A stretch of DNA of 64,000 nucleotides from a virus. Position numbers and translations under genes: made by a program. Shown here piece after piece: positions 18,119 through 64,000 of this stretch. The notes under the pieces were generated by a model that made no database searches, was not told where the DNA came from, and worked only from the letters and a program-made list of their open reading frames with translations. Position 1 is the first letter of the stretch. The number at the start of each line of letters is the position of its first letter. The stretch spans positions 31,578-95,577 of the IMG/VR virus record IMGVR_UViG_3300037961_005010; one strand, 5' to 3'.

Positions 18119-18127
18119 GGAAACGTA

Positions 18128-18135
18128 TATAAATA
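18128..18135 (+). promoter_or_regulatory. T4-type late promoter element TATAAATA
   Basis: Exact TATAAATA in the 39-base gap after propeller gene 1, ending 23 bases before the ATG of the cupredoxin-domain gene at 18158. Confidence 0.8.
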
Positions 18136-18157
18136 TAAGTAAAAGTGAGAAATAAAA

Positions 18158-18907: not shown

Positions 18908-18908
18908 A

Positions 18909-22260: not shown

Positions 22261-22261
22261 T

Positions 22262-23446: not shown

Positions 23447-23460
23447 ATTAGGAGTTAAAA

Positions 23461-24708: not shown

Positions 24709-24738
24709 AAATTTAATTTTATTCTTTCATCATAACAA

Positions 24739-24755
24739 TATAAATACTATAAATA
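24739..24755 (+). promoter_or_regulatory. Two tandem T4-type late promoter elements
   Basis: Two exact TATAAATA elements lie nine bases apart (24739-24746 and 24748-24755). The second ends 23 bases before the ATG at 24778, the normal spacing. The first may be a spare or set a second start site. This is the only doubled late element found in the window and it opens the run of long-N-terminus propeller genes. Confidence 0.75.
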
Positions 24756-24777
24756 AGAGAGAAGTTAGGAATAGAAA

Positions 24778-26397
24778 ATGGTGACAAACAGAAAGCTCGC
24801 TGACTTAGGTTCTGCAGTAGACAGCGCGGCTACTGGTAATTTTCTCACAGTTGATGATTCTGGAGGTAAGTTCAGATCGATAGCATACTCAGAGATAGCT
24901 AGTAGACCAACTGTTTTAGATTCAGCTGCAGCTCAAGCTATAATAGACTCATCTTATATTCAAGCGAGACAGACAGACGTAGGGCTAGATTCGAGTCAAA
25001 TTACGAGTTTAGTCGACTCTTCATACATCACTGCTAGACAATCTACAACAGGCTTAGATTCAGCCGGTGCACTTAATCTAGTAGACTCTGCATATCTCTC
25101 AGCAAGATCAACAACAGGTTTAGACTCATCAAAAGTAACTAATTTAATAGACTCAGATTATATATCTGGAAAAGCTGCAGTAAATTCAGGTTTTAAAACT
25201 TTTACATATTTTGCTTCAGATGGGCAAACAGACTTTTCAGGATCTGATTATAACGGTGAGGTTTTGTCTTACACCGCAGATGGTATTATAGTCTGGCTTA
25301 ATGGCGTGCAGATACTTGATACTGATGACTACACAGCTTCTAATGGAACAAGCGTTGCTTTAACGGCCGGTGCTGATTCAGGAGCAAGTTTAGTTGTAGG
25401 CAGCTGGGCGCTAGGAGGAAGTGGCAGTAGCGGTGGAGTTTTTTATGGAGACAGGGCTTTTATAGGTGATGGTACATCAGGTACTCCTGCTGATGGACAA
25501 GTAGATTACTTTGATATAACAACTACATCAAACGCTGCTGACTTTGGAGATTTCCAAACCACCAGTACAAACACTATTAATCATTCATGTTCTGTAAGTA
25601 ATGCTACAAATATAGTTTTTTATGAGCAATCAACTAACGCAGGTAGTTCTAATGACTACCAAACAATATCAGTAATAACATGTGCAACTGTAGGGAACGC
25701 ATCAGACTTCGGTGATCAGTATCATTATAGGTATGGCTCTGGTGGTGCATCAAATGGTGTGACTGGAATGTTTGCAGGTGGTTGGGGTCGACCAGGATCA
25801 AACAGTGGAGCGACAGCTGCCCCATTAGATGAGATTGATTATGTGACAATAGCCACGGCCGGAAACGCTACAGATTGGGGAAGTACTCTTTCATCTGGAA
25901 GATACGGAATGACTAATGCCGGAATAAGCAATGCAGATAAAGCCGTATATGTAGGAGGTGCTATTGGCGCTCCATCTTATGCAGCTCAAAATACAATAGA
26001 AACTTTTACATGGACTGTCGGATCAAGTGCTACAGATTTTGGAGATTTAACATCAGGAACTTTAGATCACGCATGTGCTCAAAGCACTACGAGAGGATTA
26101 ATTGCTGGTGGTACATCTGGCACTCTTAGTAACGCATATAATACTATAGAATACATAACAATAGCTTCTCCAGGAAATGCTACAGATTTTGGTGATTTGA
26201 CTACAAACAAATCTAGAAATGCTGGGTGTAGTAACACGACTAGAGCAGTGTTTGGAGGAGGTTTTTCAGCTTCTCCTATAAATGAAGTAAACGTAATCGA
26301 GTATGTAACAATTGCAACTACAGGCAATGCTCAAGATTTTGGAGATTTGACTACAGTAAAAGACCGCTGTTTCGCTGATACTGGAAATGCGTCATAG
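24778..26397 (+). CDS. Propeller adhesin 6: long N-terminus with Asp-Ser repeats, six kelch-like repeats
   Basis: A 539-residue protein of the long class. Residues 1-40 (NRKLADLGSAVDSAATGNFL, VDDSGGKFRSI) are the shared anchor. Four 22-residue LDSxxxxxLVDSxYxxAR repeats follow (about 45-135), then the beta module ending LVVGSWALGG, then six repeats including GNASDFGDQY, GNATDWGSTL, SSATDFGDLT and GNAQDFGDLT. Blades 1-4 resemble those of the gene at 32423, although that gene has the short N-terminus. It ends DTGNAS. Confidence 0.7.
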   Translation: MVTNRKLADLGSAVDSAATGNFLTVDDSGGKFRSIAYSEIASRPTVLDSAAAQAIIDSSYIQARQTDVGLDSSQITSLVDSSYITARQSTTGLDSAGALNLVDSAYLSARSTTGLDSSKVTNLIDSDYISGKAAVNSGFKTFTYFASDGQTDFSGSDYNGEVLSYTADGIIVWLNGVQILDTDDYTASNGTSVALTAGADSGASLVVGSWALGGSGSSGGVFYGDRAFIGDGTSGTPADGQVDYFDITTTSNAADFGDFQTTSTNTINHSCSVSNATNIVFYEQSTNAGSSNDYQTISVITCATVGNASDFGDQYHYRYGSGGASNGVTGMFAGGWGRPGSNSGATAAPLDEIDYVTIATAGNATDWGSTLSSGRYGMTNAGISNADKAVYVGGAIGAPSYAAQNTIETFTWTVGSSATDFGDLTSGTLDHACAQSTTRGLIAGGTSGTLSNAYNTIEYITIASPGNATDFGDLTTNKSRNAGCSNTTRAVFGGGFSASPINEVNVIEYVTIATTGNAQDFGDLTTVKDRCFADTGNAS

Positions 26398-26419
26398 TAA
26401 AGTTTAAAGGAAAGTAATA
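26383..26419 (+). repeat. Gene-junction repeat, copy 1
   Basis: The last codons of the gene at 24778 plus the intergenic spacer match 31120-31156 at 36 of 37 bases (one T/C difference). The repeat runs from ggaaatgcgtcatag through the Shine-Dalgarno AAGGAAAG. It marks a junction that has been copied with a gene or used for recombination. Confidence 0.75.
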
Positions 26420-27976
26420 ATGGGTTTAAGTAGAAAATTAGCTGATCTAGGTAAATTCATAGATTCTGCCGCCACGAGTGACTTCTTAACGGTTGACGAT
26501 TCAGGCGGTAAGTTTAGAGATGTTTTATGGACAGAGATAGCTGGAAAACCAACTACTCTAGACTCTGCGGCTGCACAAGCGATTGTGGACTCGGCATATG
26601 TCCAGGCCAGACAAGTTGACGTAGGCCTAGACTCAGCATTAGTAACATCATTAGTAGACTCATCTTACGTTCAAGCAAGGCAGGGCGACGTAGGCCTAGA
26701 CTCAGCAGGAATAACTGGAATTGTAGACTCAGCATATGTAAATGCTAGAATAACTTCTGGTCTCGATTCAGCTGGAACGATAAGCTTGGTAGACTCTACT
26801 TATGTAGATGCAAGAACAACTGCTAACTCAGGATTTAAGAACTATAGGTACACAGCAACAGCTGGTCAAACCGCGTTTACTAACTCAGATGAAAATGGTA
26901 GTGTGTTATCTTATTCTGGCGACGCCTTACTTGTTTTTTATAACGGTGTTGTTCTGGAACCTACGGTTGACTATAGTACTTCAGGAAGTAACACTGTAAC
27001 TTTGACAGAAGGTGCAGATTCTGGAGTTTCTGTGAACGTTGCAACGTGGACAATTCAATCAAGCGGCGGTAGTACCTCTTTTTGGGGTGGAGATAGGGGA
27101 CTTCTTGGTGGAGGAGATACTGGAGGCTCGCCAGGAACTAATGTTATTGATTATTGGGATATTACATCATCAGGAAATGCTACTGACTTTGGTGATTTAG
27201 TTAGCTCAAAGCACAGTATGTCAGATGGTACTGGTAATACTACTCGAGGAGTATTTTGTGGAGGTTATGTCGGTTCAACGTTTACAACTGTAGATGAGAT
27301 TGATTATGTAACTGTTTCAACAACAGGCAACGCTCAAGATTTTGGCAATTTAACTACTGGATCATATGTAGGAGCTACAGCAGGTAATGGAACTTATGGT
27401 GTAACTGCTATAGGTTATGATAATGGAGCTACTGTTGTAAATACTTTAGATTACTTTACGATTGCCACCACAGGAAACGCATCAGACTTTGGTGATTTAA
27501 CAACAGCTAGATACGCAACGGCAGGAGCTGAAAACGGTACTTATTCGTTATACATGGGTGGACAGTCACCGATAACTAATGTCGTTGACTATATAACCGT
27601 AGCTTCTCCAGGAAATGCTACTGACTTTGGTGATCTGACTCAAAGCCTTCGTGGTGGGGCGGCTTGTGCTGATGCTACTCGAGCGGTTGTTGGCGGTGGA
27701 TTTGACAGTTCTCCAGGAAGAACTAACGTGATGGAGTATTTTACTGTTGACACCCCAAGTAACGGCACAGATTTTGGCGATTTGACAAACTCTATCAATA
27801 GCTCCCATGCTTGCTCTAACACTACTTATGGCACATGGGCTGGAGGTAGCGATAATTCTGGTTCGGTTAATGTTATTCAAATTGTGACTATTCAAACAGC
27901 AGGGAATGCTACTGATCACGGGGATCTAACATCATCACGGAACGGCGGGGCAGCATGTTCAGGCGCCGCTTCATAA
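26420..27976 (+). CDS. Propeller adhesin 7: long N-terminus, six canonical kelch-like repeats
   Basis: A 518-residue long-class protein with AAAGGAAAG before the ATG. It opens LSRKLADLGKFIDSAATSDF, followed by four Asp-Ser linker repeats and a beta module (YTATAGQTAFTNSDENGSVL to VNVATWTI). Repeat cores are GNATDFGDLV, GNAQDFGNLT, GNASDFGDLT, GNATDFGDLT, SNGTDFGDLT and GNATDHGDLT, among the most regular of the array. It ends ACSGAAS. Variable loops contain most of the differences from neighbours. Confidence 0.7.
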   Translation: MGLSRKLADLGKFIDSAATSDFLTVDDSGGKFRDVLWTEIAGKPTTLDSAAAQAIVDSAYVQARQVDVGLDSALVTSLVDSSYVQARQGDVGLDSAGITGIVDSAYVNARITSGLDSAGTISLVDSTYVDARTTANSGFKNYRYTATAGQTAFTNSDENGSVLSYSGDALLVFYNGVVLEPTVDYSTSGSNTVTLTEGADSGVSVNVATWTIQSSGGSTSFWGGDRGLLGGGDTGGSPGTNVIDYWDITSSGNATDFGDLVSSKHSMSDGTGNTTRGVFCGGYVGSTFTTVDEIDYVTVSTTGNAQDFGNLTTGSYVGATAGNGTYGVTAIGYDNGATVVNTLDYFTIATTGNASDFGDLTTARYATAGAENGTYSLYMGGQSPITNVVDYITVASPGNATDFGDLTQSLRGGAACADATRAVVGGGFDSSPGRTNVMEYFTVDTPSNGTDFGDLTNSINSSHACSNTTYGTWAGGSDNSGSVNVIQIVTIQTAGNATDHGDLTSSRNGGAACSGAAS

Positions 27977-27988
27977 GGAAATAAAAAA

Positions 27989-29545
27989 ATGGCTTTTAGT
28001 AGAAGTAGAAAATTAGGTAACTTAGGTAAGTCGATAGATAGCTCGGCACTAAGCGATTTCTTAACGGTTGACGACTCAGGTGGTAAGTTTCGCGATGTAC
28101 AATATTCCGAAATAACTGGAAAGCCTACTCTACTAGACTCTTCAACTCTTTCATCTCTCGTAGATTCATCTTATATTCAATTAAGACAAACTGATGTTGG
28201 AATTGATTCCGGTCAAATTACTAATTTAGTTGACTCATCTTACGTTCAAGCAAGACAAGGTGCTGGTGGTTTAGACTCAGCTAAAACTACTAACTTAATT
28301 GACTCATCTTACGTAGCTGCAAGAATAACAGCTGGATTAGACTCATCTTCTACAATAAACTTAGTAGATTCAGATTATGTAGGAGCTAGAACATCTGCTA
28401 ATTCTGGTTTTACATACTACAAGTATACATCAACAGCAGGACAAACTGCTTATACTGGTGCTGATGATAATGGAGAAACATTATCTTACAGTACATCTAC
28501 TGACAATATATTAGTTTTTTATAACGGCATTTTGCTCATACCAACAGATGATTATACAACTTCTGGTGGAGACACTGTAACTCTTACTACTGCAGCAGAT
28601 TCTGGTTCTCCAGTGACAATAGGAAGATGGGCTGTTGCTGCTCCGGCCGGTAACTTTATATCTTGGGGTGGAGCTCGAGCTTTGACTTTTATGCAAGGAC
28701 AAACTAACGGTGACGCGATAAATTATTTTGCTATGGCAACACCAGGAAATGCTTCAACTTTTGGTACTACATCAGGTGTTTCAAACGATGGCGGTAGTGC
28801 AGTTTCTGACGCAACATATGCAGTGTTTGCCGGTCACACTAATAGTACATCATATGACGATGTTCAATATGTAACAGTATCTACACTAGGCAATACTTCT
28901 ACTGGAATGGTTATAGATCCTTATGATGACATGGGATCAGCTTCTGATGGTACTAATGCTTTTTATTTTGGTGGATATAGAACAAATCCTTGGTTAAACA
29001 AAATTCAAAAGTTTTCTATATCTACATTTTCAGGAACGGCATCAGATTTTGGTGATCTAGTAGAAGGTTTACTAGGCCTATGTGGTTTTGGAAATACTGA
29101 TAGAATCATAGCAGCTGGTGGCAGCGCATATGCAAACTTGTATAGAAACACTATACAATACTGGAACCCTTCATCATCCACAAACGCATCAGACTTTGGC
29201 GATTTAAATTTTAGTACACACAGTCTTGGTGGATGTAGCGATTTAACGAGAGGTGTAGTGGGAGGAGGTTATAATGGATCTTCATATGAAAATAGCTTAG
29301 ATTATGTTACTATAGCGTCTACAGGTAATGCTACAGATTTTGGAGATTTAAACTATTCAAGATCAGGAACAAAATCTGCTGGAACTGATGGTGTATACGG
29401 CGTATTTGCTGGAGGTTATAACGGCAGTGCTAGAGATGACGGAATAAATAGAATTACCATTCAAACAACCGGAAACTCCACAGACTTTGGTAATTTAACT
29501 GAAGGTGGTTCAACGGCTTCTACAACAGCAGGTAATGCTTCATAA
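27989..29545 (+). CDS. Propeller adhesin 8: long N-terminus, six repeats with degenerate first blades
   Basis: A 518-residue protein with the anchor RSRKLGNLGKSIDSSALSDF and four linker repeats (for example GLDSSSTINLVDSDYVGAR). Its first blades are weak (GNASTFGTTS, GNTSTGMVID), while the last four keep the core (TASDFGDLV, NASDFGDLN, GNATDFGDLN, GNSTDFGNLT). It ends TTAGNAS. The total still fits six blades. The start is 12 bases after the previous stop with AAGGAAAT as ribosome site. Confidence 0.7.
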   Translation: MAFSRSRKLGNLGKSIDSSALSDFLTVDDSGGKFRDVQYSEITGKPTLLDSSTLSSLVDSSYIQLRQTDVGIDSGQITNLVDSSYVQARQGAGGLDSAKTTNLIDSSYVAARITAGLDSSSTINLVDSDYVGARTSANSGFTYYKYTSTAGQTAYTGADDNGETLSYSTSTDNILVFYNGILLIPTDDYTTSGGDTVTLTTAADSGSPVTIGRWAVAAPAGNFISWGGARALTFMQGQTNGDAINYFAMATPGNASTFGTTSGVSNDGGSAVSDATYAVFAGHTNSTSYDDVQYVTVSTLGNTSTGMVIDPYDDMGSASDGTNAFYFGGYRTNPWLNKIQKFSISTFSGTASDFGDLVEGLLGLCGFGNTDRIIAAGGSAYANLYRNTIQYWNPSSSTNASDFGDLNFSTHSLGGCSDLTRGVVGGGYNGSSYENSLDYVTIASTGNATDFGDLNYSRSGTKSAGTDGVYGVFAGGYNGSARDDGINRITIQTTGNSTDFGNLTEGGSTASTTAGNAS

Positions 29546-29556
29546 GGGAATCATAA

Positions 29557-31134
29557 ATGCCAAACTATAGTAATAGAAGACTTGCAAACCTAGCTAATGC
29601 AGTTGACAGCGCTACTTCCGGAAACTTTTTAACAGTAGATGATTCATCTCAAGGTAAGTTCTTATCTCCTGTGTGGAGTACACATATAACCAATGTGCCT
29701 AGTGGTCTTTTAGATTCTTCTTTAGCTCAAGGATTATTTGATTCTGCATATATTCAAGCTAGACAAACTGACGTAGGTCTAGACTCAGCATTAGTAACAT
29801 CACTTATAGACACAACATATGTTCAAGCCAGAGCTGGAGGCGCTGGTTTAGATTCTGCAGCGGCAATTGCTCTTATAGACTCTGCGTATGTTGCTGCAAG
29901 ATTAACATCAGGATTAGATTCTGCTGGAATTTCATCTATTATAGATTCAGACTACGCTGCAGCGAGAGTATCAGCCGGATCTGGATTTCAAATGTATGAG
30001 TACAAGGCAACTGCTGGACAAACAGTATTTGACTCTACTGATGATAACGGAGAAACATTAGCATATGATGCAAATGGAATACTTGTATTTCTCAATGGTG
30101 TTTTATTACTAGACACGTTTGACTACACCGCGTCAAATGGAACAAGTGTTACACTAACAGATAGTTCTGACTCAGGTGCTAATTTACAAATTATAAAATA
30201 CGGTATTGCTACTAGTGGAGGTGGAACTAGTGCTTTATATTATGGTGATCGTGGACTTAGATTTGGTGGTTATGACACAGGCGTTGATCATTCAAATGTA
30301 ATAGATTACTGGAACATAGCCTCCTCTACAGGAAACGCTGTAGACTTCGGCGATCTAACTCGAAAAAGAAGTTATATTGCTTCTTGTTCTAATGCATCTA
30401 GAGCTCTTTCATTTGGTGGTCAATCATCTTCCCCCTTTGCTAGCGGATCAGATATAATAGATTATGTTACAATAGCCTCTACCGGCAATGCCACGGATTT
30501 TGGTGACATGCTTTCCGCGAGAAACCGAGCAGCATGTGAAAGCAATGGAACAAGAGCTATTCATGGAGGTGGCACTGACGGAAGCAGTAATGTTAATACC
30601 ATAGAGTATGCCACAATAGCAACCACAGGAAACACTATTGACTTTGGTGATTTATCAGTAGCTAGAGAGCGTCTTTCGGCAGCATCTAACGGGTCGAGAA
30701 TAGTTTTTATCGGTGGTCAGGCAGGCGGTTATTCCAACACTATGGATTATGTTACTGGCGATACTACAGGAAATGCGCAAGACTTTGGCGACCTTCTAAC
30801 TCCTCTTAGTAACCACGGAGCTACAGGAACAGGATCTGGAGATCGAGCTATAGTGTTTGGTGGCCTGGCCAGTGGTAGCTATCACAATGTTATTCAATAT
30901 TTTCCTGTTTCAACAACAGGAAACTCGTCAGATTTCGGAGACCTATTAGGAAATCACGCCTATGCTTCCGCTTGTTGTAATTCAACCAAAGCTCAGTTTG
31001 TTGGGGGTTACAATCCTGGTGATATAGACATAATACAACAAGTAACAATGGCTACTCTAGGAAACGCAACAGATTATGGAGATTTAACTGAAGCGGTGTA
31101 TAGTTCTGGTGCAACTTCAGGAAATGCGTCATAG
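29557..31134 (+). CDS. Propeller adhesin 9: long N-terminus, six kelch-like repeats
   Basis: A 525-residue protein. The anchor is NRRLANLANAVDSATSGNFL, with four linker repeats; the sequence around GLDSALVTSLIDTTYVQAR is nearly identical in DNA to the matching part of the gene at 26420. Repeat cores are GNAVDFGDLT, GNATDFGDML, GNTIDFGDLS, GNAQDFGDLL, GNSSDFGDLL and GNATDYGDLT. It ends TSGNAS. Its 3' end and following spacer duplicate the junction after the gene at 24778. Confidence 0.7.
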   Translation: MPNYSNRRLANLANAVDSATSGNFLTVDDSSQGKFLSPVWSTHITNVPSGLLDSSLAQGLFDSAYIQARQTDVGLDSALVTSLIDTTYVQARAGGAGLDSAAAIALIDSAYVAARLTSGLDSAGISSIIDSDYAAARVSAGSGFQMYEYKATAGQTVFDSTDDNGETLAYDANGILVFLNGVLLLDTFDYTASNGTSVTLTDSSDSGANLQIIKYGIATSGGGTSALYYGDRGLRFGGYDTGVDHSNVIDYWNIASSTGNAVDFGDLTRKRSYIASCSNASRALSFGGQSSSPFASGSDIIDYVTIASTGNATDFGDMLSARNRAACESNGTRAIHGGGTDGSSNVNTIEYATIATTGNTIDFGDLSVARERLSAASNGSRIVFIGGQAGGYSNTMDYVTGDTTGNAQDFGDLLTPLSNHGATGTGSGDRAIVFGGLASGSYHNVIQYFPVSTTGNSSDFGDLLGNHAYASACCNSTKAQFVGGYNPGDIDIIQQVTMATLGNATDYGDLTEAVYSSGATSGNAS

Positions 31135-31156
31135 TAAAGCTTAAAGGAAAGTAATA
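31120..31156 (+). repeat. Gene-junction repeat, copy 2
   Basis: Second copy of the 37-base junction described at 26383-26419, covering the final codons of the gene at 29557, the stop and the Shine-Dalgarno of the gene at 31158. The genes following the two copies belong to different N-terminal classes. Confidence 0.75.
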
Positions 31157-31157
31157 A

Positions 31158-32411
31158 ATGAGTCAATACAGTGAAATAAGAGTTAACACTATAACAGATT
31201 CAACTGGATCTGTCGCTGTCGATTTTGAAAATGGACTTACTATAGGAGGAAAGGCACTAGACGATTCAGGCGGAGCTATTCAATTAAATAAAATAATAGA
31301 TTCAGCTGACGCGCCTTCAGATTCTGCTTCTTATTATGGCTTAATGTGGTACGACAGCGCTAACACTAGATTGAATATATACACTCCAATTGGTTGGAGA
31401 ACAATAAGAGGTGATCAGGCTCCTAGCGGTGGTGGAGGTAGTTCGAACGCAACTCATGCTTTTGCTCTTGGTGGAACATACTACAACGGAAACTATTACG
31501 TTACCGCTGCAAATCACATTGAAACATTAACAATAGCAACTACTGGTAACGCAACTGATTTTGGTGACATAACTGCTTCTGGTTCTATCGCACTAGGTAT
31601 TTCAGAAATAGCAGCAGGAGGAGATCATAGCAGAATCGTACTAGGTTCGGCGTTAGTAGATAACGGATATGGTAACGCAGGAGATCTTGCTAATGGTACC
31701 GGAATACATTACATAACTTGTGCGACCCCAGGTAATACTGTAGACTTTGGCGATCTTCCATCAGATTATTTTAATGAAAACGGAGGCGATGCTGGGGCTG
31801 GTTACATGCACTTTAGGTCCAATGGATCTGGTAGCAGCACTAGTATTGTTACAGTTACAATTCAAACTACTGGAAACGCATCTGATCTAATAGATTTAAG
31901 TGGTGCGGAGGGATATTCATTTGGCGGTGTAAGTTCTAATGATACAAGAGCGCTTGCTTTTGGTGGAAGATATGGTAACGCTTTTGGTGTTGCAGTTGAT
32001 TATTTCACTCCAGGAAATTCGTCAGTAGCAGCTGCTGACTTTGGTGATCTCTTGTTGGGTTCTAATAAACCAGCAGTAACAAACGACAATGTAAACAGAA
32101 CAATTTATCACGAATCATATAATGGCTCTGGATTTTCCTGGGGAAGTTTATCAAATACTTTAGCCTATCTTGACACAGCGACTTTAGGAAACGCAGTGGA
32201 TTTTGGTGATTTATCATCGGCTAGACAAGGAGGAGGAGCTTCGGCCAATAACACTAGAGCTCTGTTTTTTGGTGGAGAATCAAATAGTTCAAGCGATAGC
32301 TATGCACACAATACGGTTGATTACGTGACAGTAGCTACTCCAGGAAACGCTACAGACTTCGGTGATGTTTCAAGAAGAAGACAAACATGCGGTTCTGAGG
32401 GAATAGGTTAA
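31158..32411 (+). CDS. Propeller adhesin 10: short N-terminus, sister propeller of gene 5
   Basis: A 417-residue protein. Its N-terminus (VDFENGLTIGGKALDDSG, GLMWYDSANTRLNIYTPIGW) is the module of the gene at 18909, not that of its propeller sister at 23461. The propeller keeps GGDHSRIV, GIHYITCATPGN, NASDLIDLS, NSSVAAADFGD and NKPAVTNDN. A Gly/Ser hinge (APSGGGGSS) joins the two parts. It ends CGSEGIG. This combination points to domain exchange at the hinge. Confidence 0.7.
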   Translation: MSQYSEIRVNTITDSTGSVAVDFENGLTIGGKALDDSGGAIQLNKIIDSADAPSDSASYYGLMWYDSANTRLNIYTPIGWRTIRGDQAPSGGGGSSNATHAFALGGTYYNGNYYVTAANHIETLTIATTGNATDFGDITASGSIALGISEIAAGGDHSRIVLGSALVDNGYGNAGDLANGTGIHYITCATPGNTVDFGDLPSDYFNENGGDAGAGYMHFRSNGSGSSTSIVTVTIQTTGNASDLIDLSGAEGYSFGGVSSNDTRALAFGGRYGNAFGVAVDYFTPGNSSVAAADFGDLLLGSNKPAVTNDNVNRTIYHESYNGSGFSWGSLSNTLAYLDTATLGNAVDFGDLSSARQGGGASANNTRALFFGGESNSSSDSYAHNTVDYVTVATPGNATDFGDVSRRRQTCGSEGIG

Positions 32412-32422
32412 GGAAAAAACTA

Positions 32423-33664
32423 ATGAGTGAAGTAAAAGTAGATAAAATTACAAATAGAGTTGGTACAGGCGCTCCAAGATTTCCTAATGGTATTACTATA
32501 GGAGGACAAACTGTAGCTTCGCAATATCCTGGTGTTTTAGCAGGATCTATAGTAGAATCTAACGGCACACCTACAAACGTTTCTGCAGGTACTTATTGGT
32601 TTAACGATAGTGGAGCGAATAAATTTTTAGCAATATATTACGATGATAATTGGATAGGTCTATCTGGAGAAGTAGTTGCTGGTGGTGTGCAGCCAATGGG
32701 TGGAGATAGAGGTTTTTCATTAGCAGGAACAGGACCTTCAACAGATGATGTTGTAGAGTATTGGGATTTAACTACAACAAGCAATGCTCAAACTTTTGGC
32801 AACACTCTTACTACAGACATAAACTGGTCAGCTGCTTGTGGAAATGGAACGAGAGTTATAAATCACGAAGCTTATTCTAACATTAGTACATATGACACTA
32901 TATCTTATATAACTTCTGCGACTTTAGGAAACGCAGTAGATTTTGGTAATACTTTTCATCAAAGAGTAGGAGAAGCTGCAGCTTCAAATGGAACTTATGG
33001 CATATTTGGCGCAGGATATGGCGCAACTGGTCCAGCTCCTTACTCAGGTCCTGCGGCTAGAATAGACGATATAGATTACGTAACAATATCTACTACTGGA
33101 AACGCAGCAGATTGGGGAGATGTGCTACCTACAAATAGATCATACTTAGCGTGCGCTGACAATAGTAGTTATGTTTTATTCGCAGGAGGCATGGCTAATG
33201 CAGGAGAAGGATCTCCGTATACAAGTTCATCTAACGTTGCAGGAGAAATGTATAAGTTAAGTACTACTGTTGGATCAGGTGGTACGCTTATCGGAGATTT
33301 ATCAGACGATAGAGGGATTCTAAAAGGAGCTGAATCTCCAACAAGAGCTTTATTTATGGGAGGACTCATAGGATCTAGCTCTACAGCCTCTAATTGGTGT
33401 GATATAATAGATTATATGGATTTTGCTTCAGAAGGCAACGCAACTGATTTTGGAAATCTTGTACGCGGAAACGCTTATGGTGGGGCCTGTTCTAATGACA
33501 CTACAGCTGCATATTTTGGAGGTTATGATAACATAAGCGGATCTACTACAGAGGTTGCTGACATAAGATATATAACAATGGCAACTACTGGTAATGCTAC
33601 TGATGCTGGTGATTTAACCAGAGCCGATCATAGGATGGACGGTGCTTCAGGTTTTGCATCTTAA
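32423..33664 (+). CDS. Propeller adhesin 11: short N-terminus, sister propeller of gene 6
   Basis: A 413-residue protein with the short anchor (MSEVKVDKITNRVGTGAPRF, IGGQTVASQYPG). The propeller resembles that of the gene at 24778 in blade order and odd features: a first blade with SNAQTFGN, a second with SATLGNAVDFGNTFHQR, a third with GNAADWGD, and a fourth blade core built on TVGSGGTLIGDL. It ends GASGFAS. As in the 5/10 pair, similar propellers are carried by different anchors. Confidence 0.7.
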   Translation: MSEVKVDKITNRVGTGAPRFPNGITIGGQTVASQYPGVLAGSIVESNGTPTNVSAGTYWFNDSGANKFLAIYYDDNWIGLSGEVVAGGVQPMGGDRGFSLAGTGPSTDDVVEYWDLTTTSNAQTFGNTLTTDINWSAACGNGTRVINHEAYSNISTYDTISYITSATLGNAVDFGNTFHQRVGEAAASNGTYGIFGAGYGATGPAPYSGPAARIDDIDYVTISTTGNAADWGDVLPTNRSYLACADNSSYVLFAGGMANAGEGSPYTSSSNVAGEMYKLSTTVGSGGTLIGDLSDDRGILKGAESPTRALFMGGLIGSSSTASNWCDIIDYMDFASEGNATDFGNLVRGNAYGGACSNDTTAAYFGGYDNISGSTTEVADIRYITMATTGNATDAGDLTRADHRMDGASGFAS

Positions 33665-33676
33665 AGGGCTCAAAAA

Positions 33677-35335
33677 ATGGCGATAAGCAGACGTTTAGGT
33701 AATTTAGGCGATAGAATAGATAGCGCCAGCTCTGGCAATTTTCTAACCACAGATGATTCTGGTGGCGAATTTAGAGCTATTCAATATTCAGAGATAGCCG
33801 GAAAACCTACAACTTTAGATTCAGCAAACGTTATTTCATTTATGGACTCTTCTTATGTCCAAGCCAGACAAGTTGACGTAGGTTTAGATTCAAGTCAAAT
33901 ATCTTCTTTAGTAGACTCAGCTTATGTGCAGGCGAGGCAAGGAGTAACAGGTCTTGACTCAGCTGCTACAATTAATTTAATAGACTCAGCTTATGTTGCT
34001 CTTAAAGGAGATGCTGGATTAGATTCCAGCGGAATGACTAATTTAGTAGATTCAAGTTTTATTGCTAACTTAGCAGGCGCTAAGTCAGGATTTGAGGTTT
34101 TTAAATACACAGCAACTGCTGGTCAAACAACGTTTAAAGATTCAGATTTAAATGGATCAATCTTAGCTCATCCAAGAGATGGCCTTTTAGTGTGGCTAAA
34201 CGGTGTTTTGCTAGATGATACTACTGATTACACTGCTCCTAATGGATCAAGTGTTGTACTAACGTCAGGCGCAGATTCTGGTTCAAGCGTAATAATAGCA
34301 AAATGGGGAGGCGGGCCAGCATATTCAACAACGTTTTTTGGTTCTAGAGGTTTGGTTTTTGGTGGTTACAGTTTTGCTTGGTCTCACAATGACATTCAAT
34401 ATATTCCAGTTGCAACTTCTAGTAACGCAACAGATTTTGGCGATCTCACCTCTCCTAAAACTGGTACAGCATCTCATTCTGATGGATCTAGAATTTTAAA
34501 TGGCGGTGGTTATGACGGAACAACACCTCATCCTGCAACTAGGCTTGATGTTATAGAATACGTTACAGCTAGTACTACAGGTAATGGCACTGACTTTGGA
34601 GATCTTACAGTTGGAAGATTAGCCTTAACTGCAGGAGGAGATCCTACTCGTACTCTTTTTGCTGGAGGTAGAACACTTAATGCAGATACAGAACTTGACA
34701 CCATAGAGTATGTAACAACTCAAACTACTGGAAATTCACAAGACTTTGGAGATCTTTCATATCCACGAGATTATTTAAGAGCTACTTCAGATGCTACTAG
34801 AACTGTGTTTGCTGGAGGCGATGAGGACTACAGTGTTGATTATAACACAAAAACTAATATCATGGAATATGTAACAACTCAAACACCTGGAAACACTACA
34901 GACTTTGGTGATTTAACAGCAGCTAGAGCATCGTGTCAGCAAGGTGTTGTCGCAAACTCAACCAGAGGAGTTTTTATGGGAGGCGCGTCTTATCCCTCAA
35001 CTATTCATGATGAGATTGACTACATAACAATTGCAACTACAGGCAACGCATCTGACTTTGGAGATATGACTAAAGAAACGCACAGTTCTGCAGGTATGAG
35101 CGATGGGACTTATGGTTTACATGCAGGAGGAGCTCATCCATCATCAACAACAGCTCAACCTGGAACAGAACAAATTGGTTACATAACAATTGCAACTACA
35201 GGCAATGCACAAGACTTTGGGGATTTACTTGCTTTGGGTCCTGCAACGCCTCCAAATTCGCAAACTATATATGGTGATAGTGATGTATTTACAAGTGGAC
35301 TTAACATATACCAATCAGGCGCATCTGGTACATAA
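33677..35335 (+). CDS. Propeller adhesin 12: long N-terminus, six repeats, unusual C-terminal tail
   Basis: A 552-residue protein, last of the array. Anchor SRRLGNLGDRIDSASSGNFL, four linker repeats, beta module ending VIIAKWGGG, and six regular repeats (GNGTDFGDLT, GNSQDFGDLS, GNTTDFGDLT, GNASDFGDMT, GNAQDFGDLL and a leading SNATDFGDLT). Unlike the others it lacks the G-x-A-S end and runs on for about 30 residues (PNSQTIYGDSDVFTSGLNIY), perhaps capping the propeller differently or fusing to a further element. Confidence 0.7.
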   Translation: MAISRRLGNLGDRIDSASSGNFLTTDDSGGEFRAIQYSEIAGKPTTLDSANVISFMDSSYVQARQVDVGLDSSQISSLVDSAYVQARQGVTGLDSAATINLIDSAYVALKGDAGLDSSGMTNLVDSSFIANLAGAKSGFEVFKYTATAGQTTFKDSDLNGSILAHPRDGLLVWLNGVLLDDTTDYTAPNGSSVVLTSGADSGSSVIIAKWGGGPAYSTTFFGSRGLVFGGYSFAWSHNDIQYIPVATSSNATDFGDLTSPKTGTASHSDGSRILNGGGYDGTTPHPATRLDVIEYVTASTTGNGTDFGDLTVGRLALTAGGDPTRTLFAGGRTLNADTELDTIEYVTTQTTGNSQDFGDLSYPRDYLRATSDATRTVFAGGDEDYSVDYNTKTNIMEYVTTQTPGNTTDFGDLTAARASCQQGVVANSTRGVFMGGASYPSTIHDEIDYITIATTGNASDFGDMTKETHSSAGMSDGTYGLHAGGAHPSSTTAQPGTEQIGYITIATTGNAQDFGDLLALGPATPPNSQTIYGDSDVFTSGLNIYQSGASGT

Positions 35336-59248: not shown

Positions 59249-59645
59249 ATTAATAGAGTGGAGTCCAGAAATGATGCTGGAAGTAACTCTAAATGAACCA
59301 GATGATTTTTTAAAAGTTAGAGAAACGTTAACAAGAATAGGTGTAGCCTCACGTAAAGACAAAAAGCTATATCAGTCTTGTCATATTCTTCACAAACAAG
59401 GTAGATACTTTATAGTTCATTTCAAAGAGCTGTTTTTACTAGATGGAAAAAAATCAAATCTAGAAGAGAACGATGTAGCTCGTCGTAATACAGTTGCAAC
59501 TTTGATAAGTGACTGGGGCTTAATAGATATAGTTAATAAAGATCAAATGGAGATGATAGCACCTCTCAGGCAAATAAAAATAATTTCATTTAAAGAAAAA
59601 AATGAGTGGGAGCTGTGTCCTAAGTATAATATCGGAAAAAAATAA
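59232..59645 (+). CDS. regA: Translational repressor RegA
   Basis: A 137-residue protein starting at GTG 59232. EVTLNEPDDFLKVRETLTRI, CHILHKQGRYFIVHFKELF and the RRNTVATLISDWGLI block identify RegA, which binds start regions of early mRNAs such as those for gp44 and gp45 and represses them. It overlaps gp62 by 17 bases, a coupling seen in T4-like genomes. Confidence 0.92.
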   Translation: MEEENKLIEWSPEMMLEVTLNEPDDFLKVRETLTRIGVASRKDKKLYQSCHILHKQGRYFIVHFKELFLLDGKKSNLEENDVARRNTVATLISDWGLIDIVNKDQMEMIAPLRQIKIISFKEKNEWELCPKYNIGKK

Positions 59646-60907
59646 TGCTTTCTATAGATTTGTGGTTTGATCCACAATCTAATATATATGATGAATTATC
59701 TTTTAAACAACCTAAACACATTTGGACGAGCAGAAACCCTCGTGCTGAAATAAATTGGGAATTAAAAGAGCAACTTAACTATACTAATTTTTCTATAAAT
59801 TATAAGTCTATACAAGATGATGATTTAAATTTAAATAATAAAAATTATATCATATTCCCCTGGGTCATTCTTTTTAGATTTGAACACATAAACATTAATG
59901 AATGGCTTGAAAAATATTTCACAAGAAAAATAATAAAGTTTATAAAAATTCATAGAATAGAAGTTGTCTTTATATGGATGTATGAAGCTATTGATTGGAG
60001 AGATTTTAAAGTAAATAGCATAATAAAGTTTTTTAACAAACATAAAATAAAATCTTTTTTGCGGTTTGCAGATAATAGATTTTCATTAGATGATATAGAT
60101 CCTGACATAAGAAAATTTTGGACTTTACCACTTTCAAAAAATAGGATGTTGCCAAGATATAATTGGGCAGTAGAAGTAACACACAAAGATACTTTTGTAT
60201 TAGAAAATCCTGAAAAGTTTAAAAAAATATGTTATGTAGTAGGTAGAGCAGCTAGTAATAATTTAAGGATACTTTCTTTATTAAAAGCTCATGAAAAAAA
60301 TATACTAGACAATGACGACATTTTTTTTACTTTTACTTCAGGCATGGAGAGTGTGTCAGAAGAAGAACTTTTAGAATGGATAAAGAATAGGAAAATACAT
60401 TTTAAATCATATGAACATATTTTTAATGATGATGAAAAGATAAAAGAAATATTTAAAACTCGTGTTGTAGATAAATATGGAAATGTTTCTAATAAAACTA
60501 GAGAAGAAAAAGATCAATACTATTCTTTTCCTCAGACACACTATGCATTAGTAAACGTTGTGATTGAAACTAGAGAGTATGAACTCTCACTTACTGAAAA
60601 AACTCTCAAGTGTTTAAAACACGGTTTACCCTTTATTCCATATGCTTCTCAAGGTTCAATAAAGCATTTAAAAGAACAAGGATACAAATTTTATGATTGG
60701 ATTGATTATTCATATGATAGTATAAAAAGTCCTTATGAAAGGTTTGATGCTTTTTTCAATGAAGTATACAGGTTATATAAAATGCCTATGGAAGATTTAA
60801 TAAAATTATACAGAGATAAAAAAACTATACATATAAACGAATATAATAAATACATATATCAAAAGTCAGTAGTAGAACACATAGAAAAAAATCACATTTT
60901 ATGGTAA
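59645..60907 (+). CDS. Glycosyltransferase-like protein
   Basis: A 420-residue protein starting at the last base of the regA stop. The C-terminal part ELSLTEKTLKCLKHGLPFIP, then GSIKHLKEQGYKFYDWIDYSYD, is the donor-binding segment seen in a group of GT-B-like transferases (the SEKTxKxxxxGxPFI pattern). The N-terminal 200 residues are poorly conserved. The gene is more AT-rich than its replication neighbours, suggesting later acquisition. Sugar and acceptor unknown. Confidence 0.55.
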   Translation: MLSIDLWFDPQSNIYDELSFKQPKHIWTSRNPRAEINWELKEQLNYTNFSINYKSIQDDDLNLNNKNYIIFPWVILFRFEHININEWLEKYFTRKIIKFIKIHRIEVVFIWMYEAIDWRDFKVNSIIKFFNKHKIKSFLRFADNRFSLDDIDPDIRKFWTLPLSKNRMLPRYNWAVEVTHKDTFVLENPEKFKKICYVVGRAASNNLRILSLLKAHEKNILDNDDIFFTFTSGMESVSEEELLEWIKNRKIHFKSYEHIFNDDEKIKEIFKTRVVDKYGNVSNKTREEKDQYYSFPQTHYALVNVVIETREYELSLTEKTLKCLKHGLPFIPYASQGSIKHLKEQGYKFYDWIDYSYDSIKSPYERFDAFFNEVYRLYKMPMEDLIKLYRDKKTIHINEYNKYIYQKSVVEHIEKNHILW

Positions 60908-61016: not shown

Positions 61017-61487
61017 ATGACAGGCTTACAAACACTATTCCCACGATCATCTTTTGTTGGTTTTGATCACTTATTTAATGAGTTAGAATGGACTGCAAAA
61101 CACGCAAAGGATCACTATCCCCCACATAACATTATAAAAACAAATGAAACAGATTATTTGATTGAGCTTGCAATTGCAGGTTTCTCAAAAGATGAGTTAT
61201 CTGTTGAAGTGAAAGACAGAACTCTTACTGTAACAGGTGAACATAAGTCAAGGGGCCGTGAGTTTATTCATCGTGGCATTTCTACTAAGAAGTTTAAGCG
61301 AACATTCAGGCTGTCTGAGCACGTACAAGTGCACGGAGCAGATATTCAGGATGGTATACTTGCAATCGAACTGAAGTACGTCATCCCTGAAGAAATGCGT
61401 CCTCGTAAAATCAACATTGGTCAAAGCGAGGAACAAAATGACACAACACATACTAGCGATAAGCAACTACTTACAGAGTCCGATTGA
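61017..61487 (+). CDS. hsp20: Small heat-shock protein Hsp20
   Basis: The ATG at 61017 (MTGLQTLFPRSSFVGFDHLF) has AAGGAG six bases upstream and is preferred to a TTG at 60999. The 156-residue protein has the alpha-crystallin domain: DYLIELAIAGFSKDELSVEV, LTVTGEH, FKRTFRLSEHV and ADIQDGILAIELKYVIPEE. It is an ATP-independent chaperone; hsp20 is usual in marine T4-like phages. Its last 50 bases overlap the next gene in another frame. Confidence 0.92.
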   Translation: MTGLQTLFPRSSFVGFDHLFNELEWTAKHAKDHYPPHNIIKTNETDYLIELAIAGFSKDELSVEVKDRTLTVTGEHKSRGREFIHRGISTKKFKRTFRLSEHVQVHGADIQDGILAIELKYVIPEEMRPRKINIGQSEEQNDTTHTSDKQLLTESD

Positions 61488-61692
61488 TGCTGTACTTTCT
61501 TTTTTTAAGAGCTATAACTCAAACAGAGAACTTAGAAAAAGGCGTAATCAGACTATAAAAGAATTATCATCGTTAACTGATTATGAATTAAATGATATTG
61601 GCATAGCACGAGGCGACATACGCTCAGTAGCTGAAGGCCACGCTGATATGAAAAAAACAGAGACCAACTCTAATTTAAAGGGGTGGGTCTAA
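61438..61692 (+). CDS. DUF1127 small basic protein
   Basis: The start is the ATG at 61438 (MTQHILAISNYLQSPIDAVL), giving 84 residues and a 50-base overlap with hsp20. Residues about 34-65 (RKRRNQTIKELSSLTDYELN, then DIGIARGDI) are a clear DUF1127 domain. DUF1127 proteins are small Arg-rich factors common in Alphaproteobacteria, with some linked to RNA turnover and phosphate or carbon metabolism. The N-terminus also looks like host members. Probably host-derived. Confidence 0.8.
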   Translation: MTQHILAISNYLQSPIDAVLSFFKSYNSNRELRKRRNQTIKELSSLTDYELNDIGIARGDIRSVAEGHADMKKTETNSNLKGWV

Positions 61693-61871
61693 TGACAGCA
61701 ATAGTAAGCAATTATATATTCTCACCCTTGTCGGGTTTGTGGTCTTCTGTAGATCGATATACGCAGATAGCGGGATATTCGAGAGCGGCAGCGGAGCTAG
61801 CCAGAAATGGCTACCACGAGGAGGCAAAGAAGTGTATGCTACAACTAGCTAAATTGAGAGACGATAAATAA
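61692..61871 (+). CDS. Small alphaproteobacterial-type protein
   Basis: The ATG at 61692 overlaps the previous TAA by one base, giving 59 residues. SRAAAELARNGYHEEAKKCM resembles short helical proteins encoded near DUF1127 genes in Alphaproteobacteria. No catalytic motif. Function unknown; the pair may act together because they are translationally coupled. Confidence 0.65.
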   Translation: MTAIVSNYIFSPLSGLWSSVDRYTQIAGYSRAAAELARNGYHEEAKKCMLQLAKLRDDK

Positions 61872-61875
61872 AAAC

Positions 61876-61900
61876 TTGAGGGGCCGCCAGGCCCCTTCAA
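61876..61900 (+). other. Strong hairpin before the DoxX-like gene
   Basis: GGGGCC (61880-61885) pairs with GGCCCC (61890-61895) around GCCA, and the flanking TTGA/TCAA can extend the stem with one bulged T. No T run follows, so it is not a standard terminator. A GATAAATA, one base from the late element, lies just upstream at 61863-61870. Confidence 0.55.
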
Positions 61901-61918: not shown

Positions 61919-62344
61919 ATGAATTTATGGAACAGAATACCCGACTTTTGTTTAAGCCATTGGCTTTTAAGAATACCAATTGCAATTGTTTTCCTACAAC
62001 AAGGTTTATCTAAACTTCCATTCTCTGTAGAAGATGCAGAAGCATTTGAACTACCTGCACTTGTTTGGTGGGTTGTAACGTATGGAGAAATAGGAGCAGG
62101 TATAGGATTACTTGTTGGCGGTTTACTTACCAAGCCCTGGTTTCCAATCTTTAAAAAATGTTACTTGCCAATGTTCGGCGATATGATAACACGTTTCAGT
62201 GGTATTACTATTTGCTGTATAATGACAGGAGTCATTTGGATAGGACAACCAGAAAGTTTAACAGACGTACTTTTATATGACAATCTACACGTATTCTTAT
62301 GGGTAGGTGGATTGTTTTTTGCATTAAGAGGAAACAGAGGATGA
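61919..62344 (+). CDS. DoxX-like membrane protein
   Basis: A 141-residue protein with four hydrophobic segments, about residues 16-33 (LLRIPIAIVFLQQGLSKLP start), 45-70 (WWVVTYGEIGAGIGLLVGGL), 95-112 (FSGITICCIMTGVIWIG) and 122-138. The first, with its LQQGLSKLP turn, and the GEIGAG in the second are typical of the DoxX family. These inner-membrane proteins are linked to redox chemistry (thiosulfate:quinone oxidoreductase subunit, and oxidative-stress complexes). It overlaps the cytochrome gene by ATGA. Confidence 0.65.
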   Translation: MNLWNRIPDFCLSHWLLRIPIAIVFLQQGLSKLPFSVEDAEAFELPALVWWVVTYGEIGAGIGLLVGGLLTKPWFPIFKKCYLPMFGDMITRFSGITICCIMTGVIWIGQPESLTDVLLYDNLHVFLWVGGLFFALRGNRG

Positions 62345-62733
62345 TTAAAACTTTACTAACTGCAACAGTATTATTCACTGCTAGCTTTAGTTTGCTTAAT
62401 GCAGCAGATGCTGCAAAAGGCGAAAAAGGATTTAAGAAGTGTAAGTCTTGCCACTCAATAGCAGAGGGTGATAAAAATAAAACAGGTCCAAATCTCTGGA
62501 ATATTATGAATAGAGGTGTAGGAACTAATGAAGATTATAAATATAGTAAGAAGTTCGCTGCATGGGCAAAAGAAAATCCAGAGTGGACAGATGAATTAAT
62601 GGACGCTTGGCTAGCTAATTCTAAAAAGTTAGTTAAAGGAACTAAGATGATGTATAAAGAGAAGAAGGAATCTAAACGTGCGGACATTATTGCGTATCTT
62701 TACTCAATGGGTGAACAGCCCGGAGAAGAATGA
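62341..62733 (+). CDS. Secreted class I cytochrome c
   Basis: The ATG at 62341 begins a 130-residue protein with a clear signal peptide (residues 1-24, IKTLLTATVLFTASFSLLNA). The heme motif CKSCH is at 34-38, TGPNLWNIMNRGVG follows, and Met103 in KGTKMM is the probable sixth ligand. YLYSMG near the end is the usual C-terminal helix. It would be exported and matured by host Ccm machinery as a periplasmic electron carrier. All expected class I features are intact, so it looks functional. A cytochrome c is very unusual in a phage. Confidence 0.85.
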   Translation: MIKTLLTATVLFTASFSLLNAADAAKGEKGFKKCKSCHSIAEGDKNKTGPNLWNIMNRGVGTNEDYKYSKKFAAWAKENPEWTDELMDAWLANSKKLVKGTKMMYKEKKESKRADIIAYLYSMGEQPGEE

Positions 62734-62850: not shown

Positions 62851-63081
62851 ATGTCAAACCCATATCAAATTCGTTACGACACTTTAAACATGGCGAAAGA
62901 AATTTTAGACAAGCAATACGACATGCAAATGGAGCTAGCTTGGAAAGCAATGGATATGTATAAAGAAAATACTAAAGAAGCTATGGACGCTTATCAAAAG
63001 TACATACCAAAAGCAATAACCCCCGAAGCAATAAAAGAAAATGCTGATAAATTATATGAATTTGTCACTGATAAAAAATAA
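62851..63081 (+). CDS. Small helical conserved protein
   Basis: The ATG at 62851 with AAGGAG eight bases upstream gives 76 residues; a longer frame from 62782 lacks a ribosome site. MSNPYQIRYDTLNMAKEILD followed by helices rich in Met, Lys and Glu resembles a small protein shared by many marine T4-like phages next to DNA polymerase. Function unknown, with some similarity of style to phasin-like helices. Confidence 0.7.
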   Translation: MSNPYQIRYDTLNMAKEILDKQYDMQMELAWKAMDMYKENTKEAMDAYQKYIPKAITPEAIKENADKLYEFVTDKK

Positions 63082-63086
63082 AATTT

Positions 63087-63111
63087 AAGGGGTTTACAAA
63101 CCCCTTTTTTT
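63087..63111 (+). terminator. Rho-independent terminator before DNA polymerase gene
   Basis: GGGGTT (63089-63094) pairs with AACCCC (63099-63104) around TACA and a run of seven Ts follows (63105-63111). AA before the stem can pair with the first Ts, making it bidirectional in shape. It overlaps the promoter of gp43. Confidence 0.85.
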
Positions 63112-63146: not shown

Positions 63147-64000
63147 TTGGCATTCTATACTTCTGTGAATCGTTATGGTAATTCTATATTATATCGTGGA
63201 TATACTGATAATGGCACAGCAATAAATGAAAGAATAAAATTCAAACCAACGCTATTTGTAAAATCAAAAGAACCAAGTCGATGGAAATCTTTTGATGGTG
63301 ATGATATTAGTCCAGTAAAATTTAGTGATATGAAAGAAGCTAAAGAGTTTCTTCACACATATGAAGAAATGGATAATTTCAAAGCGTATGGCACTACTAA
63401 TTATATTCATCAGTTTATAACAGAAAAATTTCCTAATAACATAAGCTTTGACATTAACAAAATAAATGTCGTTAATTTTGATATTGAAGTTGCAAGTGAT
63501 GATGGCTTTCCTACACCAGAAGAAGCTGCATATCCTATCATATCGATAGCTTTAAAATCTAGTAAATCAACCATATACCAAGTATGGGGTTTAGATCACT
63601 ACGATCCAGCTGAGAGTGAGCTGGACCTTGACGGATCACTTATACAATATCACCATTGTAAGTCTGAAGAAGAACTTCTAGTAAAGTTTATAAGTTATTG
63701 GTCTAAGAACTGGCCTGATCTTATAACAGGCTGGAATACTAGATTTTTTGATATTCCATATCTTGTAAATCGTATACGTTTACTTGGTACAGAAGAAGCA
63801 GTAAAAAAGCTTTCTCCTTGGAAAATGGTAAATGAAAGAAACGTTTTCAAAGGAGGACGTGAATTACCTGGCTATGAAATAGTAGGCATACAACAAGCAG
63901 ATTATTTAGAGTTGTTTCAAAAGTTTGGTTATTCATATGGTGCTCAAGAATCTTATAAACTTGATCACATAGCATATGTTGTTCTTGGTGAGAATAAATT
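63147..64000 (+). CDS. gp43: DNA polymerase gp43 (N-terminal part, runs off window)
   Basis: It starts at TTG 63147 with GGAGGT seven bases upstream; the first in-frame residues (MAFYTSVNRYGNSILYRGYT) match T4-type gp43 N-termini. The 284 visible residues contain Exo I (INVVNFDIEVASDDGFP, with the Asp-Ile-Glu pair) and Exo II (ITGWNTRFFDIPYLVNR) of the proofreading domain. The polymerase domain lies beyond the window. Family B replicative enzyme, partner of gp45. Confidence 0.93.
   Translation, partial: MAFYTSVNRYGNSILYRGYTDNGTAINERIKFKPTLFVKSKEPSRWKSFDGDDISPVKFSDMKEAKEFLHTYEEMDNFKAYGTTNYIHQFITEKFPNNISFDINKINVVNFDIEVASDDGFPTPEEAAYPIISIALKSSKSTIYQVWGLDHYDPAESELDLDGSLIQYHHCKSEEELLVKFISYWSKNWPDLITGWNTRFFDIPYLVNRIRLLGTEEAVKKLSPWKMVNERNVFKGGRELPGYEIVGIQQADYLELFQKFGYSYGAQESYKLDHIAYVVLGENK

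Follow-up and report, generated by a model that had tools for sequence, protein, structure and literature searches.

Layout of the locus

The window (the whole 64,000-nucleotide stretch of DNA analyzed here) spans positions 31578 to 95577 of a 121,083-base IMG/VR virus record. Judging by its capsid and terminase matches, this record is a T4-like phage: Phage C48C1 was the nearest match of both the major capsid protein (66.6%) and the terminase (71.6%), the second nearest being OM43 phage Melnitz and pelagiphage HTVC008M for the former and cyanophages for the latter. These matches agree with the original prediction, made from the sequence, that the genes are phage encoded. tRNAs, sought as a clue to the host, were found neither in the window nor in the rest of the record.

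Close to the end of the window lies an intact gene for a DoxX-family membrane protein, overlapped at its 3' end by an intact cytochrome c gene (Table 1). The open reading frames and the sequence confirmed the ATGA overlap that had been predicted, and this overlap, with the GAGG just upstream of it, suggests that the translation of the two genes may be coupled. The 59-amino-acid open reading frame (ORF) upstream of the DoxX gene is without a Pfam match. The hairpin that follows this ORF lacks a T run on the coding (plus) strand and is terminator-like only on the minus strand; it is possibly a processing or attenuation element.

TABLE 1 Features in and around the DoxX-cytochrome c locus, numbered from the first nucleotide of the window
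Feature	Position	Strand	Basis or remark
HSP20 chaperone	61017..61487	+	Pfam HSP20, 3e-17; PHROG 432; upstream border of the slot
DUF1127 small protein	61438..61692	+	Pfam PF06568, 2.3e-11; upstream border
59-aa conserved small ORF, cluster c2	61692..61871	+	Recurs beside DoxX at many loci
G+C-rich RNA hairpin directly 5' of DoxX	61876..61900	+	-17.2 kcal/mol, z -3.97
DoxX-family membrane protein, 141 aa	61919..62344	+	ORF, Pfam DoxX, AlphaFold2, loop charges
Class I (mitochondrial/c2-type) cytochrome c, 130 aa with predicted signal peptide	62341..62733	+	Pfam Cytochrom_C, alignment, PDB profile
ATGA start/stop overlap	62341..62344	+	Sequence; GAGG just 5', possible ribosome site
76-aa small ORF, cluster c14, 3' of the module	62851..63081	+	ORF; recurs at related loci
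Terminator-like hairpin with T run, 5' of gp43	63087..63106	+	Consensus match only
gp43-like DNA polymerase	63147..64000 (exits the window)	+	Pfam DNA_pol_B_exo1; PHROG 262, 3.2e-89; downstream border of the slot

The T4-type late promoter motif TATAAATA was rejected as uninformative, since its count in the window (14, with 9.5 expected) was near the shuffled level (8 of 100 shuffles reached 14); one copy lies within the cytochrome gene. Three further observations concern sequence outside the module. First, the replication genes and HSP20 are separated by a 420-amino-acid ORF (59645 to 60907) that had no Pfam match at an E value of 0.1; its best PHROGs matches reached 0.042, and its C-terminal part looked glycosyltransferase-like by eye. 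Second, positions 16610 to 35335 contain a run of some 14 long genes that look alike and, as judged by eye, share recurrent VDS/DSA motifs; they are likely tail-fiber or adhesin paralogues. Third, a GGCSGF-motif ORF resembling, by eye, an A-type iron-sulfur carrier was noted in L117 (record position 117523 to 117870).

An intact and conserved phage cytochrome c

The cytochrome matched the Pfam family Cytochrom_C (PF00034) with an E value of 1.2e-8 and 36.6 bits, above the cut-off of 21.3; among PHROGs, only a weak family was found (E value of 0.026). Its heme site, CKSCH, comprises residues 34 to 38, and the axial methionine, residue 103, lies in a GTKM motif. The two cysteines that bind heme, the histidine, and the axial methionine were invariant in all 19 aligned phage homologues, the ligands being constant where the signal peptides varied. 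As predicted, then, the ligands are intact, and the N terminus, read from the sequence only, is hydrophobic and followed by an alanine-rich, cleavage-like site. In a profile search of the PDB, the nearest structures were mitochondrial cytochromes c (yeast, 2e-23) and a c552. With 65.8 bits against cytochrome c-550 CycA (NF043008; cut-off, 240), the protein is a relative that falls outside that equivalog. Its AlphaFold model was helical and of low confidence (pLDDT of 69.9).

A pattern scan of IMG/VR yielded 51 loci encoding this cytochrome c, whereas a tblastn search of named phages gave no match. Decayed copies in relatives had been named beforehand as a finding that would speak against the prediction; 48 of the 51 loci were intact, with CxxCH and the methionine, three were cut by contig ends, and none was decayed. 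The median dN/dS ratio was 0.195 for the cytochrome (49 of 300 pairs usable, i.e., with dS between 0.1 and 1.5; 248 saturated), 0.187 for DoxX (620 of 3,570 pairs usable), and 0.195 for the pseudoazurin described below (702 of 2,211), most other pairs of the latter two being saturated. With medians of about 0.2, all three genes are under purifying selection.

In a tree, one branch (support of 100/98) separated 26 phage rows, representing 25 distinct proteins and including the window's cytochrome, which is identical to that of L002, from 29 bacterial rows, which are the closest bacterial sequences found, other bacteria lying outside the sample. The phage rows form one clade relative to the sampled bacteria, a pattern that would fit a single old acquisition better than recent pick-ups.

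DoxX and its association with the cytochrome

The DoxX protein likewise scored above the cut-off of its Pfam family (PF07681; E value of 5.8e-8, 33.7 bits; cut-off, 23.6), and its AlphaFold2 model (pLDDT of 84.4) contains long helices at residues 13 to 31, 47 to 69, 84 to 108, and 114 to 140, which are predicted to lie in the membrane. The description of this protein as a four-helix DoxX-like protein is therefore upheld. Its loops predicted to be periplasmic were acidic in 53 of 53 homologues; by the positive-inside rule, the two acidic loops would face the periplasm. No PHROGs family was found for the window's DoxX at an E value of 0.1, and tblastn searches of named phages with two DoxX queries gave no match. 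Similarly, a Foldseek search with the model returned nothing at an E value of 0.001 or better. In VIA-align, the top row was NACHO (111 residues; root mean square deviation of 3.5), with a Z score of 9.9 that is below the level at which helical bundles become informative. By sequence, the best PDB match was a photosynthetic reaction center M chain (E value of 0.037), which we judged to be due to chance.

The family name brings to mind sulfur oxidation, with DoxX acting like a thiosulfate:quinone oxidoreductase, the activity of DoxDA of Acidianus, and with cytochrome c as the electron acceptor. A Pfam scan of the two module proteins and six neighbors found no DoxA- or DoxD-type domain and no thiosulfate dehydrogenase, and we regard this explanation as very unlikely.

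When the gene pair was sought in other phage contigs of IMG/VR, it recurred as 11 distinct protein pairs. In ten of these, the DoxX gene precedes the cytochrome gene and overlaps it by 4 bases; in the remaining one, the order is reversed and a 31-base gap separates the genes. Since the same order and overlap recur across contigs, the arrangement is more than a chance one. The original proposal of a likely respiratory electron carrier associated with DoxX is supported, but to speak of a pair is too narrow, as in many phages either carrier occurs without DoxX or DoxX occurs alone. About 26 kb separates the two genes in one record of 75 kb. No DoxX gene was present in the available stretch of 29 of the 51 cytochrome c loci (many on short contigs) or in 8 of 13 long cytochrome c records (near-copies included; some may be fragments; G410, with a partial and weak cytochrome c match at an E value of 9e-4, was left out). 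DoxX relatives were also far commoner in the IMG/VR scan (237 loci) than the cytochrome (51). Among 80 loci retrieved with DoxX as bait (the best 80 of the 237), 8 had cytochrome c, 22 had pseudoazurin, and 50 had neither carrier in the available stretch. The best reading is that DoxX is a frequent, nonobligatory membrane partner of the carrier. Because many cytochrome c loci show no DoxX and most DoxX-baited loci show no carrier nearby, DoxX may do something separate.

Pseudoazurin as the alternative carrier

What the original prediction had overlooked is that the cytochrome is interchangeable with a copper protein in the same slot. Clustering of neighboring genes revealed that, in other phages, a blue-copper protein occupies the place beside DoxX. 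It matched Copper-bind in five of five cases tested; two proteins compared with the pseudoazurin model TIGR02375 scored 98.6 and 102.3 bits, just below its cut-off of 109.85, and the nearest solved structures were pseudoazurins (best, 8.8e-34). The type 1 copper ligands (H61, C98, H101, and M106) were invariant in 45 of 45 phage pseudoazurins. Relatives were found at 408 IMG/VR loci; in named phages, a tblastn search with one pseudoazurin returned as its only match a weak one to cyanophage petE (29.6%).

We then compared 105 distinct intervals between HSP20 and gp43, the window itself left out. Part of the module was present in 29: cytochrome c alone in 7, DoxX-cytochrome c in 2, DoxX with pseudoazurin in 12, pseudoazurin alone in 3, and DoxX alone in 5. 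The other 76 held none of the three genes (in 10 of them, such a gene lay in another part of the locus), and none of the 105 held both carriers. The slot between HSP20-DUF1127 and gp43 can thus hold either cytochrome c or pseudoazurin, with or without DoxX. Among 363 viral loci, some of them overlapping on one contig, the two carriers were never found together. The same was true of 50 long viral records (36 to 343 kb, chosen by eye among contigs of at least 35 kb), of which 13 had cytochrome c, 24 had pseudoazurin (17 with DoxX), and 28 had DoxX. Additional baited sets of 80 loci each, which overlap with each other and with the DoxX-baited set and include near-copies, gave cytochrome c at 4, pseudoazurin at 14, and neither at 62 loci for HSP20 (the best 80 of at least 595); cytochrome c at 6, pseudoazurin at 2, and neither at 72 for gp43 (the best 80 of 356); and DoxX at 51 and cytochrome c at none for pseudoazurin (the best 80 of the 408). 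In the 80 DoxX-baited loci, about two with both carriers would be expected by chance and none was seen, so the count test by itself is a weak argument for exclusivity.

The exchange was also followed on a tree of DoxX proteins. This quick tree (85 rows, 143 columns, many open forks) was labeled by the partner found within 2.5 kb, which was cytochrome c for 10 rows, pseudoazurin for 40, none for 19, and unknown for 16. The cytochrome c/pseudoazurin label needs five changes; for the cytochrome c rows, four or more are forced by the starred branches. The carrier partner has therefore changed about four to five times on this tree. That one carrier gives way to another, unrelated one with the same kind of job is the strongest evidence we have that the job is that of a carrier. 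The exchange does not follow a simple charge rule: by a crude guess of the cleavage site, the mature cytochrome is net positive in all 25 distinct proteins, and the pseudoazurins are approximately neutral (median net charge of 0), so charge complementarity between DoxX and the carrier, as far as sequences tell, is not general.

These data also bear on two other explanations. Given the 76 empty intervals, the genes might be hitchhiking host genes that are functionless in the phage, but such passengers should hardly show purifying selection, ligands that stay intact across deep divergence, a single phage clade relative to the sampled bacteria, and repeated exchange with a functional analogue; we consider this disfavored and scarcely credible. 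Alternatively, the module might serve in envelope stress defense and go with HSP20, the carrier feeding a host peroxidase or similar enzyme and DoxX guarding against oxidative or thiol stress. HSP20 is often a neighbor of the module, and the DoxX protein of the mycobacterial membrane oxidoreductase complex (DoxX-SodA-SseA) is linked to stress. Many module-free loci have HSP20 as well, however, and Pfam scans of six neighbors detected no peroxidase, SodA, or SseA-like gene. Superoxide dismutase or sulfurtransferase partners of DoxX, absent from those six neighbors, could be host encoded. On balance, a stress role seems improbable to us.

Small ORFs of clusters c9, c13, c18, c35, and c66 are also repeatedly found next to DoxX and pseudoazurin in numerous phages (e.g., at loci L043, L054, and L058). 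Several look membrane-like by eye, and they may be part of a larger envelope gene island.

Bacterial relatives and candidate hosts

Relatives of the cytochrome were present in 318 of 385 genomes from the class of a Rickettsiales MAG (G005), a class we take to be Alphaproteobacteria. DoxX relatives were found in 13 of the 385 at an E value of 0.001, the closest (about 1e-50) in just 4. These four genomes are small (1.3 to 1.4 Mb), with a G+C content of 30 to 32% in the stretches read, and three of them also carry pseudoazurin. In two of the four (at L172:6623-8704 and L173:8068-10167), DoxX lies 51 bases from a gene for an NDH-2-like dehydrogenase, which exceeded the Pfam cut-offs for Pyr_redox_2 and NDH2_C, has a C-terminal cNMP-binding domain, and matched no NCBIfam model over its cut-off. 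When the four weaker matches are added to the four strong ones, seven of the eight small genomes with DoxX-like genes also have pseudoazurin. Each of the eight shows one match to a heme-copper oxidase (COX1) and has proteins for cytochrome c assembly, so such bacteria would offer a phage carrier both a maturation system and an acceptor. The hosts of the phages are probably alphaproteobacteria, and small-genome bacteria of this kind are the candidates we would name.

A bacterial DoxX gene adjoining a cytochrome c gene was found at none of 35 bacterial cytochrome c and 17 bacterial DoxX loci (flanks of 1.5 to 5 kb; some of these loci come from the same place), and none was noticed by eye in the longer stretches that were read.

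In the original prediction, DoxX looked like a quinone-side subunit, a claim that is not supported as stated; in its favor are the NDH-2-like neighbor in bacteria and the topology. A different role would be that of a membrane assembly or redox-maturation factor for metal and heme proteins of the envelope, with the carriers as its clients. MauE and NACHO/TMEM35A, which are DoxX-like, are assembly or maturation factors for other proteins; the phage DoxX pairs with two unrelated metalloproteins, and the structure that its model matched best was that of an assembly factor, NACHO. The score of that match, as noted, falls short of the informative range, carrier-bearing phages with no visible DoxX are common, and the bacterial relative adjoins a dehydrogenase gene. 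We therefore rate an assembly role as rather unlikely; it is compatible with what we propose below for the carriers. For any one role of DoxX, our confidence is lower than for the reading as a whole.

In two small, low-GC alphaproteobacterial genomes (G246 C1:56375-56803, L454; G013 C21, L453), a pseudoazurin gene has on one side a PQQ alcohol-dehydrogenase cluster, which includes a c-type cytochrome of its own, and on the other side genes resembling those for PQQ biosynthesis. Pfam was run on G246 only; the short G013 contig was read by eye, as were the XoxF and Pqq names. The arrangement suggests that this pseudoazurin may be used in methanol or alcohol oxidation.

A proposed optional respiratory carrier cassette

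Our preferred explanation, to which we would give a probability of roughly 60%, is that T4-like marine phages infecting heterotrophs carry this locus as an optional cassette for respiratory electron transfer, made up of an exchangeable heme or copper carrier and, frequently, DoxX. The view that the carriers function is the well-supported part of it, and we hold that view with greater confidence than the reading as a whole. During infection, the cytochrome would be exported to the periplasm, loaded with heme by the host Ccm system, and used to shuttle periplasmic electrons to a heme-copper terminal oxidase of the host, which would maintain the proton-motive force and ATP as the host loses its transcripts and proteins. 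In other phages, pseudoazurin would do the same job with copper. DoxX would most likely dock or load the carrier at the quinone/NADH-dehydrogenase side. A bolder version, which we put forward tentatively and think doubtful as a whole, is that of a respiratory plug-in with DoxX at its center as a new small quinol- or dehydrogenase-side docking unit for the carrier. Gene replacement at a single locus would then swap iron and copper carriers, perhaps according to the metal supply of the water.

The alternation of a copper and a heme protein in one role is familiar from plastocyanin and cytochrome c6 of cyanobacteria and algae. There, the choice is made in cells by regulation or lineage, whereas here it depends on which gene is present at one locus of the phage. 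In Paracoccus, pseudoazurin and cytochrome c550 are likewise interchangeable. In the excerpted text of one source, both are electron carriers in denitrification (PMC9409073); these are the same two kinds of periplasmic carrier, in alphaproteobacteria, as in the phage slot, but the Paracoccus carriers are chromosomal, with no link to DoxX made in that excerpt (PMC9409073), and ours are phage genes. Cyanophages offer the closest viral parallel: according to part of a review, their plastocyanin (petE) may hand electrons to cytochrome c oxidase and is a small, exported, phage-encoded carrier thought to sustain electron flow in the infected cell (PMC10452541). Our locus resembles petE in being an intact, conserved carrier gene in a phage genome, its export being read from the N-terminal residues; it differs in that the petE host is photosynthetic and the carrier is plastocyanin, whereas here the carrier is a heme protein or pseudoazurin, often with DoxX.

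Respiratory genes of viruses of heterotrophs have been described before. In Indian Ocean viromes, cbb3 oxidase and NADH dehydrogenase reads were attributed to such viruses; these are annotated enzyme subunits, with no soluble carrier named in the portion concerned and the term "DoxX" absent from that text (PMC3474794). A phage 5-aminolevulinic acid (5-ALA) synthase, argued in the part of the source concerned to sustain respiration through the supply of heme metabolism, is a biosynthetic enzyme (PMC11480375), and ours is an electron carrier. By analogy, viral cbb3 oxidase and viral heme synthesis may point the same way as a respiratory carrier (excerpts of PMC3474794 and PMC11480375). As the original prediction had supposed, the combination appears not to be described: a literature search, with most subscription journals outside its scope, turned up no paper dealing with cytochrome c, pseudoazurin, or DoxX of phages. 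The terms "cytochrome" and "DoxX" do not occur in PMC7029224, nor do "cytochrome," "DoxX," and "electron" in PMC9599517 and PMC9636769, and the portions of PMC6794264 and PMC3686209 concerned contain no phage respiratory carrier. A phage-host study names a DoxX-family gene once, in a list of quantitative PCR primers (PMC9224243), and DoxX-like proteins were false hits in an RNA-virus screen (PMC12548735).

Phage control of electron flow is, to our knowledge, documented mostly in cyanophages, where it concerns photosynthesis; the locus would extend it to respiration in heterotrophs of the ocean, and would do so over many viral contigs. In related viruses, a copper protein in the same place probably does the same job, which suggests that these viruses supply their own carrier to keep the infected cell respiring. 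The exchange of heme and copper carriers beside DoxX amounts to a natural experiment on whether lytic phages must sustain host respiration, and it also opens to testing the role of the DoxX family of membrane proteins, whose function is unclear.
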